A stretch of DNA of 32,963 nt, from contig CANQNH010000009.1 of the NCBI GenBank assembly GCA_947625165.1, positions 1-32,963 of the forward strand, read 5' to 3'. A program made the translations under genes and the position numbers. Under the pieces are notes generated by a model. The model saw only the letters and a list, made by a program, of their open reading frames with translations. It was not told the origin of the DNA and did no database searches. The stretch is from an uncultured Clostridia bacterium. Its GTDB lineage: Bacteria; Bacillota; Clostridia; Christensenellales; UBA1242. Below, one piece after another: positions 1,622-9,365 of the stretch. How positions within the stretch are numbered: the first letter of the stretch is position 1; every line of letters starts with the position of its first letter.

Positions 1622-2971
1622 TTATTGCTTAAATCCGCGCTTTCGCATTTCATTCAAACAAAAATCAACGCTTTGCTTCAAACTTTGTTTTGTGGTGTCA
1701 ATCACAATGCTCTCTGGCAATTTCGTGATTGCGCCGTGTTCTCTGTGAACATCGGCATAGTCTCTTGCACGCAATTCCTCCAAAACATCGTCAAATTCAA
1801 CATCGTTCCCCATCTCTCTTTGCTGCTCATATCGCCTTTTTGCGCGCACATTTTCATCTGCCGTGCAGAAAAATTTGAAGTCGGCATTCGGCAAAACAGT
1901 GCTTCCAATGTCCCGCCCCTCCATCACAAGATTGTTCTTTGACGCAAAATCTCTTTGCAACTTCAAAACCTTGTCGCGTATGCACTGAAATGGCGCAATT
2001 TTCGCCGAAAGAGCGCTTATTCTCTCCGTGCGAAGATTTGCTGTGTGGTCAATTCCGTTCACAATGGCGTGCTGAACTCCGTCAACAAACTCCACACTGA
2101 TGTTGATTTGTTTGGCAAACTTCTCAATGTATTTTTCCGAAATTTTGCTCTCGGAAAGTTTCATATAGTCAAACGCACACGCAATCGCGCGATAGAGCGC
2201 ACCTGTGTCAAACACTTTGAAACCAAGTGTTTTTGCAAGCGCTTTTGCGATTGTGCTTTTTCCACTGCAAACATAGCCATCAATCGTCACATTGGTCACT
2301 TTTGATGTGGAAAATTTTTCATTGATGATGTTCAGGCAATATTCCACCGTTTCATCCAAATCCATAAAACTGTTGTCAACAATAATGCTGTCCTCGCAAG
2401 GCTTCAACGGTGCAATATCGCGCGTGCTGTCGCGTTCATCTCGTTGCTGCAAATCGGAAAGAATGTCGGTCAATTTTGCTTTTTTGTCCTTCTTTTTCAC
2501 ATCTGCAAAGCGCCTTTTTGCCCTTGTCTCTTGCGTGGCTGTCAAAAATATCTTCACATCTGCATCAGGCATAACAACACTGCCAATGTCACGGCCTTCC
2601 ATCACGCAATCATAGTTCTTTGCAAACTCGCGCGCAATTTGGAGGTATTTTTCACGCACAACAGGGAAAACAGAAATCTTTGATGCCATCTGGCTGACCT
2701 CTTCGCTACGCAAAAACTCCGTGACATCCTGCCCGTTGAACAATGTGTGCTGCCCATCACTTTCAAAAACCACGCTGACGCTGGATTTTTTGACAAAGTC
2801 GGCAACTTTCTTTTCGGTCAATTCGCCCCCAACCTGCTGCAAGAAGGAATATGCAAAAGCCCGAAAAATTGCTCCCGTATCCAAAATTTTGAACCCCAAT
2901 TTTTGCGCCAAAATTTTCGCAAGGCTGGATTTGCCGCTGCCCGTGAAACCATCAATGGCAATCTTTCTCAT
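1622..2971 (-). CDS. cmk: Tandem-fused double cytidylate kinase
   Basis: CMK phosphorylates CMP and dCMP with ATP. Ordinary bacterial CMK has about 220-225 residues; this protein has 449 and contains two complete copies. Domain 1 (about 1-222) has the P-loop GFTGSGKS (8-15), DTGAIFRA, EGRDIGS (125-131), a lid with RAKRR and QQRDERDSTRDIAPL. Domain 2 (about 226-449) has GYVCSGKS (232-239), DTGALYRAIA, EGRDIGS (351-357), RAKRR and RDYADVHR. Both keep Walker A, the CMP-binding EGRDIG segment and lid arginines, so both may be active; domain 2 lacks the usual APL after the last Arg. The ATG at 2971 is preceded by GGGAGGAG. The promoter at 2988-3029 is duplicated before the GNAT gene. No terminator is evident before the repeats and tRNA-Pro. 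Family certain; the tandem arrangement is unusual. Confidence 0.93.
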   Translation of the reverse strand: MRKIAIDGFTGSGKSSLAKILAQKLGFKILDTGAIFRAFAYSFLQQVGGELTEKKVADFVKKSSVSVVFESDGQHTLFNGQDVTEFLRSEEVSQMASKISVFPVVREKYLQIAREFAKNYDCVMEGRDIGSVVMPDADVKIFLTATQETRAKRRFADVKKKDKKAKLTDILSDLQQRDERDSTRDIAPLKPCEDSIIVDNSFMDLDETVEYCLNIINEKFSTSKVTNVTIDGYVCSGKSTIAKALAKTLGFKVFDTGALYRAIACAFDYMKLSESKISEKYIEKFAKQINISVEFVDGVQHAIVNGIDHTANLRTERISALSAKIAPFQCIRDKVLKLQRDFASKNNLVMEGRDIGSTVLPNADFKFFCTADENVRAKRRYEQQREMGNDVEFDDVLEELRARDYADVHREHGAITKLPESIVIDTTKQSLKQSVDFCLNEMRKRGFKQ

Positions 2972-2987
2972 AATCTCCTCCCATTTA

Positions 2988-7517: not shown

Positions 7518-9335
7518 TCAATCCAAAATTGCCTTAATCCTTCTGATGCCGCTGGAAGAACTTTCCTCTTTGATGATTTTCAGATGATGAAGGTCACGAG
7601 TGTTCTTCGCATGAGGGCCGCCACAAATTTCTTTGGAAACATCGCCAATCGTGTAAACCTTCACAACATCGCCATATTTGCTCTCAAAAACACCAACTGC
7701 ACCGCTGTTTTTTGCATCTTTAACGCTCATTTCGGCATAGGAAACATCAATTTCCTTTGCGATGGCGTCATTGACAAACTTTTCAAGCGTGGCAATCTCC
7801 TCCGGCGTCATCTTGTGGTCAAGATTGAAGTCAAGACGAAGCCTTTCAGGTGTTATGTTTGAACCTTTTTGCATAACTTGCGGCCCAAACATCTTGCGAA
7901 GTCCGGCCATAATCAAATGTGTTGCTGTGTGCAGTTTTGCACTTTCATAACTGCTGTCTGCAAGTCCGCCTTTGAATGTGCCGGCAGATGCAGTTCGACT
8001 TTTTTCCTGATGCTCTTCAAATGCAGTCTTAAAGCCCTGCTCATCAACATCATAGCCGCGTTCTTTGGCAAGTTCTTTGGTCAGTTCAAACGGAAAACCA
8101 AAGGTGTCATAAAGTCGAAAACAAGCCTTTCCAGAAATCATATTTTCAACCGTCTGCCCCTGCTTTGCGGCAAACTCTTTGTGCTTTTCAATTCCAAAAA
8201 GCACCTTTTCAAACTCTTTATGCCCCTCTTCCAAAGCCTTTGAAAACTTTTCAACCTCTTTGGCAAGTTCGTCTTTCACAAATTGACGATTTTTTGCGAT
8301 GTCAGGATAATCCTCACCGTGCTTGTCAATGAAAATATCAATGATGTCAGCAAAAAACTTTGTGTCGAAAGCGATGTTTCTTGCACAATTCACAGCGCGG
8401 CGAATAAGCCTTCGAAGAATGTAGCCCTGCCCAACATTTGAAGGCACAACCCCTTTTGCATCACCCAAAATGAACATAGCAGAGCGCAAGTGGTCGGCAA
8501 TAATGCGATAGGCACGCGTTGCTTTTTGATTTTCCAAATATTTCACACCAGCCTTCGTGCCAATGAAATCAACAACATCCTTGAACACACCTGTGTCATA
8601 AACACTTTGAGCTCCATTAAACACAGTCAACGCTCTTTCCAAGCCCAGCCCTGTGTCTATGTTTGGTCTTGCAAGAGGAACGGCCTTTTCGCCCGCTTTT
8701 TCAACTTTATATTGCATAAAGACATCGTTCCAAATTTCCAAATATTTCCCACAGTCACAAGATGGTGAACAATTTGGGCCACAAGGCTCTTTGCCGGTGT
8801 CATAAAACATTTCTGTGTCTGGGCCGCAAGGGCCAACACCACCGCCAAGCGCCCACCAGTTGTCATCTTTGCCTTGGAAGAACACTTTTTCAATACCACA
8901 TTCCTTCCAAGCGCGGAAGGTCACTTCATCTCTCGGAGCGGTTTCATCGCCTGCAAAAACAGTTGTCGCAAGGCGCTCTTTTGGAATGCCAAGATATTTT
9001 TTGCTTGTCAAAAACTCGAAAGAAAGTTTTATCATCTCTTCCTTTGGGCAATCCCCCAAAAACCAATTTCCAAGCATCTCAAAAGATGTCAAGTGGCTCG
9101 CATCGCCAATCTCGTCAATATCGCCCGTGCGGATGCATCGTTGGATGTTGTAGAGCCTGTTTCCAGCAGGGTGTTTTTCGCCCAAAAGATATGGGACAAT
9201 CGGATGCATTCCAGCAGTTGTGAAAAGCACTGTTGGGTCGTTTTCAGGAATTATTGATGCATTTTCAATTCTTTTAAAACCATGTTCTTCAAAGAATTTA
9301 AACCATTTTTCTTTGATTTCGTTGTCAGTTATCAT
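7518..9335 (-). CDS. alaS: Alanyl-tRNA synthetase, short form
   Basis: This 605-residue enzyme charges tRNA-Ala. The catalytic domain shows class II motifs, with FTTAGMHPIVPYL, RCIRTGDIDEIG, TSFEMLGNW and DTGLGLER. The editing domain keeps its zinc-binding residues HTATH (469-473) and CGGPHAKNT (571 onward). The protein stops just after the editing domain (SSSSGIRRIKAILD); the C-Ala/DHHA1 domain present in the usual enzyme of about 870 residues is absent. A cysteine-rich insert, EPCGPNCSPSCDCGKY, sits in the catalytic domain near residue 184-198 and may bind metal. The ATG at 9335 is 5 nt after GGAGAAG; a GTG at 9347 lies upstream of that site. It has its own promoter at 9366-9394. Short AlaRS forms are known in reduced lineages, and no separate C-Ala gene is visible nearby. 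Confidence 0.95.
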   Translation of the reverse strand: MITDNEIKEKWFKFFEEHGFKRIENASIIPENDPTVLFTTAGMHPIVPYLLGEKHPAGNRLYNIQRCIRTGDIDEIGDASHLTSFEMLGNWFLGDCPKEEMIKLSFEFLTSKKYLGIPKERLATTVFAGDETAPRDEVTFRAWKECGIEKVFFQGKDDNWWALGGGVGPCGPDTEMFYDTGKEPCGPNCSPSCDCGKYLEIWNDVFMQYKVEKAGEKAVPLARPNIDTGLGLERALTVFNGAQSVYDTGVFKDVVDFIGTKAGVKYLENQKATRAYRIIADHLRSAMFILGDAKGVVPSNVGQGYILRRLIRRAVNCARNIAFDTKFFADIIDIFIDKHGEDYPDIAKNRQFVKDELAKEVEKFSKALEEGHKEFEKVLFGIEKHKEFAAKQGQTVENMISGKACFRLYDTFGFPFELTKELAKERGYDVDEQGFKTAFEEHQEKSRTASAGTFKGGLADSSYESAKLHTATHLIMAGLRKMFGPQVMQKGSNITPERLRLDFNLDHKMTPEEIATLEKFVNDAIAKEIDVSYAEMSVKDAKNSGAVGVFESKYGDVVKVYTIGDVSKEICGGPHAKNTRDLHHLKIIKEESSSSGIRRIKAILD

Positions 9336-9365
9336 AATCTTCTCCACGCCTAAATTTCACAAAAA

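Follow-up and report, generated by a model that had tools for sequence, protein, structure and literature searches.

We identified, in an uncultured Clostridia bacterium of the family UBA1242, a gene whose product unites two complete bacterial cytidylate kinases (CMKs) in a single chain. Within what could be searched, this CMK-CMK fusion is a new architecture of known parts. Judging from conserved residues and their pattern across species, the protein of this bacterium most likely has two working CMK sites, of which the C-terminal one would be indispensable. In the window, that is, the whole stretch of 32,963 nucleotides that was analysed, the gene occupies a minus-strand open reading frame of 449 codons that starts with ATG at 2971, ends with the stop codon at 1622–1624 and is preceded by a good ribosome-binding site. 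The features of the gene are as follows.

1622..2971, minus strand, double cytidylate kinase gene, 449 aa plus stop (open reading frame, Pfam and NCBIfam scores)
2975..2982, minus strand, ribosome-binding site GGGAGGAG ahead of the ATG (sequence)
2306..2971, minus strand, half 1 (D1), residues 1–222, cytidylate kinase (NCBIfam score, alignment to E. coli CMK)
2927..2950, minus strand, P-loop of D1, GFTGSGKS, residues 8–15 (sequence)
2579..2599, minus strand, EGRDIGS of D1, residues 125–131 (sequence)
2405..2443, minus strand, R177–L189 of D1, RDERDSTRDIAPL, equivalents of E. coli R181, D185 and R188, then APL (alignment)
2291..2320, minus strand, junction, residues 218–227, between the two Pfam matches (Pfam)
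1625..2305, minus strand, half 2 (D2), residues 223–449, cytidylate kinase (NCBIfam score, alignment to E. coli CMK)
2255..2278, minus strand, P-loop of D2, GYVCSGKS, residues 232–239 (sequence)
2003..2005, minus strand, Ala323 of D2 at the position of E. coli Ser101 (alignment)
1901..1921, minus strand, EGRDIGS of D2, residues 351–357 (sequence)
1727..1765, minus strand, R403–I415 of D2, RDYADVHREHGAI, catalytic Arg and Asp retained, GAI instead of APL (alignment)

By score and by residues, each half is a full member of the bacterial (d)CMP kinase family (TIGR00017/PF02224; E. coli CMK, PDB 1kdo, 1cke and 2cmk). Pfam PF02224 matched the protein twice, with a total of 399.4 bits (cut-off 26), of which D1 obtained 221.3 bits at 2321–2962 and D2 187.3 bits at 1643–2290, both matches spanning positions 1–210 of the 211-position profile. 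The two halves, which are 40% identical to each other, scored 214.4 (D1) and 191.6 bits (D2) against the NCBIfam cmk equivalog model TIGR00017 (cut-off 135.55). Since each half alone exceeds the Pfam and NCBIfam cut-offs, the reading of the frame as two complete CMK domains in the earlier note holds, as does the assignment of a P-loop and an EGRDIGS motif to each half (residues 8–15 and 125–131 in D1, 232–239 and 351–357 in D2). To assign residue positions, we aligned the halves to E. coli CMK chains, with no gaps or almost none. All nine of the checked E. coli-equivalent residues are present in D1 (K14, R37, S97, R106, R127, D128, R177, D181 and R184) and eight of the nine in D2, the exception being the Ser101 equivalent, which is Ala323. 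The eight core residues considered below (K18, R41, R110, R131, D132, R181, D185 and R188, E. coli numbers) occur without exception in each half of the window protein.

Solved CMK structures to which the protein was matched have chains of single-domain length (208–252 residues), whereas the window protein holds two such lengths in one chain, and the halves follow each other closely. In the 35 full-length fused proteins considered below, the P-loop lysine of D2 lies 52–55 residues (54 in 25 of them) after the D1 equivalent of R188, compared with 57 expected by arithmetic from the 227-residue E. coli chain (39 residues of tail after R188 plus 18 of head to K18). Hence there is practically no spacer, and we infer that the end of D1 must adjoin the start of D2 in space.

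The source genome is a metagenome-assembled genome (MAG) of 1.04 Mb, 82% complete and in 56 contigs, and a fragmented assembly of this kind could in principle unite two genes by misassembly or frameshift. Such an artefact is, however, very unlikely and was rejected, because 35 of the 112 genomes of the genus carry an open frame that matches both halves, with closely similar spacing and with the low dN/dS values given below. A profile search of the contigs of the source genome found no other strong match to PF02224; a further, weak match of 21.2 bits stays under the cut-off and lies within a PF13189 domain on contig C27, where positions 100–1878 of the locus L003 encode a MATE transporter fused with this cytidylate kinase-like domain. 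Two other observations concern the surroundings of the gene. Between the double cmk and a tRNA-Pro gene, the minus strand of the window holds at 1427–1581 three copies of AAAGTTATNNAAAYATAAC, spaced exactly 68 bases, for which no further exact match was found in the source genome or in loci of other genomes. At 7518–9347, the window contains a short alanyl-tRNA synthetase reading frame of 609 aa, in which Pfam recognizes only PF01411 (profile positions 1–436 of 552) and the SAD domain PF07973.

The 112 genomes of the genus were surveyed, the query being an alignment (A1) built from three fused proteins. Besides the 35 genomes with the complete fusion, a 36th (G253) carries a fused gene that ends at the contig end, one (G181) has two separate, adjacent cmk genes, 52 have a single CMK (G179 included), six have a CMK fused to another C-terminal domain and two have fragments at contig ends (G194 and G256). 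In the other 15 genomes, there was either no match (11) or weak matches only (4). These 15 were not read as true losses, because many of the fetched contigs end close to cmk; assembly breaks are the likely cause, true loss being possible. The group includes G052, G207, G233 and G276, and some of its genomes have a stated completeness of 95–100%. In the six fusions of the other kind (L065:5848–7506, L066, G206, G218, G219 and G229), the C-terminal part comprises about 330 aa and was identified, in L065 only, as an NAD-dependent epimerase/dehydratase domain (PF01370); this CMK-SDR fusion corresponds to one change on the rpoB tree described below. Neither a listing of reading frames by size in 18 loci nor the reading of them in two loci revealed an obvious common partner in the gene neighbourhood of cmk.

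Outside the genus, no double CMK was found among the matches listed for the family (309 genomes, including the 112 of the genus), for a class sample (391 genomes, eight of them from the genus) or for a phylum sample (398 genomes); the class and phylum samples overlap, and because only the best matches were considered, a divergent double CMK may have escaped notice elsewhere. One phylum match (G452) spans positions 3–442 of the query but is only 630 bases long and is therefore a single domain. The earlier note knew of no CMK-CMK fusion, and we likewise found no description of one among the papers that searches of the open-access literature listed. A search of a named collection with two short peptide patterns (80 matches kept) returned at least 16 loci with a match of at least 1,323 bases, and a 17th (L115) that runs into the contig end. 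These loci come from several sequencing projects and overlap the genus survey, at least some being the same genomes (e.g. L109 matches G138 and L112 matches G177 by position). Their contigs are titled as uncultured Clostridia bacterium, and one as Candidatus Caccovivens faecavium (L112, whose contig position of 17282 coincides with that of G177:C52, so that it is presumably this genome of the genus). Caccovivens is a name given, on material from chicken faeces, to the GTDB genus UBA11517, which release 95 places in the order Christensenellales and the family UBA1242 (PMC8035907).

An rpoB match was found in 105 genus genomes, and a species tree was built from 109 rows (102 from the genus, without G186, G221 and G256, and seven from the outgroup); it is a quick tree with SH-aLRT support only, and several rows are fragments. 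In this tree, one fully supported clade unites the 35 fused species with G179, which has a single gene, and with four genomes that lack a strong CMK match; G181 is the sister of this clade, also with full support. Over the 88 rows of known CMK architecture, the difference between fused and non-fused genes requires two changes, so that one gain by fusion and one loss (in G179) suffice for the distribution. The trees show a single fusion with G181 as the sister lineage. In G181, the upstream gene stops with TAA, and the ATG of the downstream gene follows 43 bases on, behind its own GGAGG. The upstream product has a mean identity of 57% to 12 D1 sequences, 53% to 24 single CMKs and 46% to 12 D2 sequences, and the downstream product is closest to the singles (52%) and to D2 (49%). 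In G179, a D2-type gene stands alone behind its own ribosome-binding site, and no remnant of D1 was found near it. Because G179 keeps only this gene, D2 seems to be enough, with the reservation that this is one case, that its rpoB is a fragment and that the gene might have another history.

The relationship between the halves was examined in trees of the CMKs themselves: a first tree under a simple model (165 rows), a mixture-model tree of 61 of those rows and an enlarged tree (85 rows out of a 91-row set with second copies from other genera). For the trees, 51 single CMKs of the genus were used, G179 among them, without G195 (single) and without G194 and G256 (partial); of the seven second copies in the genus g110, six were included (that of G330 had no locus). 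In the simple-model tree, D1 falls outside all other CMKs of the genus. The mixture-model tree leaves the base of the genus open and separates D1 from D2 with good support (99/98 for D1 with the upstream gene of G181, 100/99 for D2 with the gene of G179); the downstream gene of G181 falls among the single CMKs, not with D2.

Two full-length cmk genes on different contigs were found in 14 of 17 genomes searched in the family (7 of 8 in g110, the only one in g99, all 6 in g117 and neither of the 2 in g121), these 17 having been chosen, most of them for more than one match in earlier tables. In the enlarged tree, a single group (98/95) comprises D1, the G181 upstream gene and the second copies from g110 and g99, and the support for D1 with the G181 upstream gene alone drops to 89/17 once the second copies of other genera are added. 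With the second copies included, a constraint that holds D1, D2, the G181 pair and the G179 gene as one clade is narrowly disfavoured (AU p 0.041), and the whole genus held as one CMK clade is disfavoured as well (p 0.008). The 61-row set does not reject the one-clade constraint (p 0.171; p 0.316 when the downstream gene of G181 is left out).

A simple gain in gene dosage, in which a tandem duplication was fused by loss of a stop codon without any new function, would fit the two neighbouring genes of G181 and the one-clade result in the 61-row set. We consider it distinctly unlikely, given that the halves are only 40% identical, that D1 groups with the second CMK genes of g110 and g99, that the one-clade test disfavours a common clade once those genes are included and that the pair has been retained across a clade with deep rpoB branches. 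A grouping of the halves inside this lineage, which the earlier note proposed as the sign of a tandem duplication, was not obtained in the enlarged tree and is narrowly disfavoured there, while the smaller set does not reject it. On the basis of the CMK trees and the one-clade tests, the halves are, with moderate support, probably not a fresh tandem duplicate but two paralogues that met and were joined. Two related cmk genes, probably already divergent (this order of events has moderate support), would have come to adjoin, the state still present in the sister G181, and would then have been joined once, with almost no spacer, in the ancestor of the clade with the 36 fused genomes. Three second CMKs of g110 (G324b, G326b and G329b, in the genomes G324, G326 and G329, loci L382, L381 and L383) carry both R110M and D132N, at positions that contact the base in E. 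coli CMK. The substrate of these enzymes has possibly changed.

Both halves seem to be kept, with D2 the more constant. The eight core residues are intact in D2 of all 35 species and in D1 of 29 of the 36; of the seven departures in D1, five are R188K and one each R188N and R131Q, none of them in the window species, where D1 is intact. Over the 35 fused rpoB rows, the difference between intact and departed D1 requires at least three changes, regains being possible. In the CMK of Yersinia pseudotuberculosis, R110A, R131A and R188A each abolished activity, and as far as the accessible text of that study goes, R188A was the only replacement made at R188 (PMC3603445). A D1 with R188K may therefore retain some activity. 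Among the single CMKs of the genus, 7 of 51 depart at core positions, always at D132 or D185 and never at an arginine, so that departures as such are not unique to D1; the same alignment contains none in the six SDR fusions, 27 other family members and eight members of the order. Over 13 close pairs, in several of which dS is near saturation, dN/dS is 0.03–0.15 for D1 (one value undefined) and 0.02–0.12 for D2, and these low values suggest that both halves are kept by purifying selection. D1 sequences are less alike than D2 sequences in 543 of 595 species pairs, and D1 has 38 invariant columns out of 221, compared with 57 out of 222 in D2.

The faster evolution and fewer invariant columns of D1, together with the replacement of R131 or R188 in seven species, could also be taken to mean that D1 has already become, in the whole clade, a pseudo-enzyme with a regulatory or purely structural role and that only D2 turns over substrate. 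We regard this as quite improbable, because the core residues are intact in most D1 sequences, that of the window included, and because D1 has low dN/dS and scores above the cmk equivalog cut-off. The favoured interpretation is that both sites work in the window species: each half would have a site of its own that binds ATP and (d)CMP and yields (d)CDP, so that the protein would be a double-headed enzyme. D2 would be the indispensable catalytic half, a function suggested by the pattern of its core and its solitary presence in G179, and D1 a second paralogue that evolves faster under purifying selection. Where an arginine of D1 has been replaced, this half is probably retained in a supporting or regulatory role beside D2. 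The alternative offered in the earlier note, one catalytic and one regulatory site, is thus possible in the species with a departed D1, but the half that drifts is D1, not D2.

The earlier note rightly observed that D2 lacks APL, the triplet that follows the last arginine in most CMKs and in D1, and reads GAI instead (RDYADVHREHGAI compared with RDERDSTRDIAPL). As a sign of lost catalysis in D2, the missing motif does not stand up: the sole strong CMK of a genome lacks APL in the six SDR fusions (GKL or GRL), in G179 (GAI) and in G408 of the genus g121 (GAL). The loss of APL in D2 is therefore compatible with activity, and the view of D2 as the degenerate half for want of APL was rejected in the light of these enzymes and of its intact core.

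The position of Ser101 was considered as a marker of function. It is Ser in 35 of 36 D1 sequences (Ala in G245) and Ala in 33 of 35 D2 sequences (Ser in G279 and G281). In work attributed to Bertrand in 2002, a mutation of Ser101 in E. coli CMK reportedly cut dCMP phosphorylation far more than that of CMP. The halves could accordingly divide the labour, with D1 handling dCMP as well as CMP, D2 biased to CMP and the fusion fixing the ratio. This reading is rather doubtful, because the position varies among other CMKs as well and because D2 has a Ser or Thr one residue before the Ala that might substitute. Ala occurs in 8 of the 51 single CMKs of the genus, which are the only strong CMK matches of their genomes, and Pro and Gly in one each; of 27 other family members, 8 have Pro or Ala. 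As a clean marker of divided labour, Ser101 was dropped, being too variable among single CMKs. There is also an unlikely possibility of a natural series from enzyme to regulator, in which D2 turns over CMP, and D1 first takes dCMP (or another base) and in some lineages then loses catalysis and becomes an intramolecular nucleotide sensor of D2. Such lineages would be those of the seven departed species, with a minimum of three changes on the rpoB tree, and the replacements in the second copies of g110 would suggest that the paralogue lineage related to D1 tends toward new substrates.

Covalent fusion of a CMK domain to another domain is known from AroA-CMK (NF008816), PanC-CMK (NF010004) and CMK-Der (NF007071). 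In those proteins, the partner is another enzyme, whereas in the window protein, both stretches are CMK, and the whole protein scored 343.6, 334.6 and 281 bits against the three models, below their cut-offs of 943, 524 and 953, respectively. In architecture, though not by descent, the protein resembles the vertebrate adenylate kinases AK5 and AK8, which have two domains of the same NMP-kinase type per chain, both active according to the part of the source available (PMC10056885). AK5 and AK8 are, however, adenylate kinases of animals, whereas the window protein is a bacterial cytidylate kinase that obtained only 25.9 bits against the adk model TIGR01351 (cut-off 168) and does not belong to the adenylate kinase family. 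The two-domain taurocyamine kinases of trematodes also consist of contiguous kinase domains of the same type, although they are phosphagen kinases, a different family; in these proteins, as far as the accessible part of the report shows, the whole enzyme and the single domains are active (PMC3836730). For the window species, the core residues suggest that both domains are catalytically active here too.

To conclude, the parts of the double CMK are ordinary, and so, probably, is its chemistry. It owes its value to the natural series and to the drifting of D1: the genus preserves a single gene, an adjacent pair, a fused pair and a fused pair with an essential arginine replaced in one half, which makes the fate of two copies of a housekeeping enzyme that share a chain directly testable. 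The case also cautions that a changed motif, such as APL, does not mean lost function unless the catalytic residues are compared across species.
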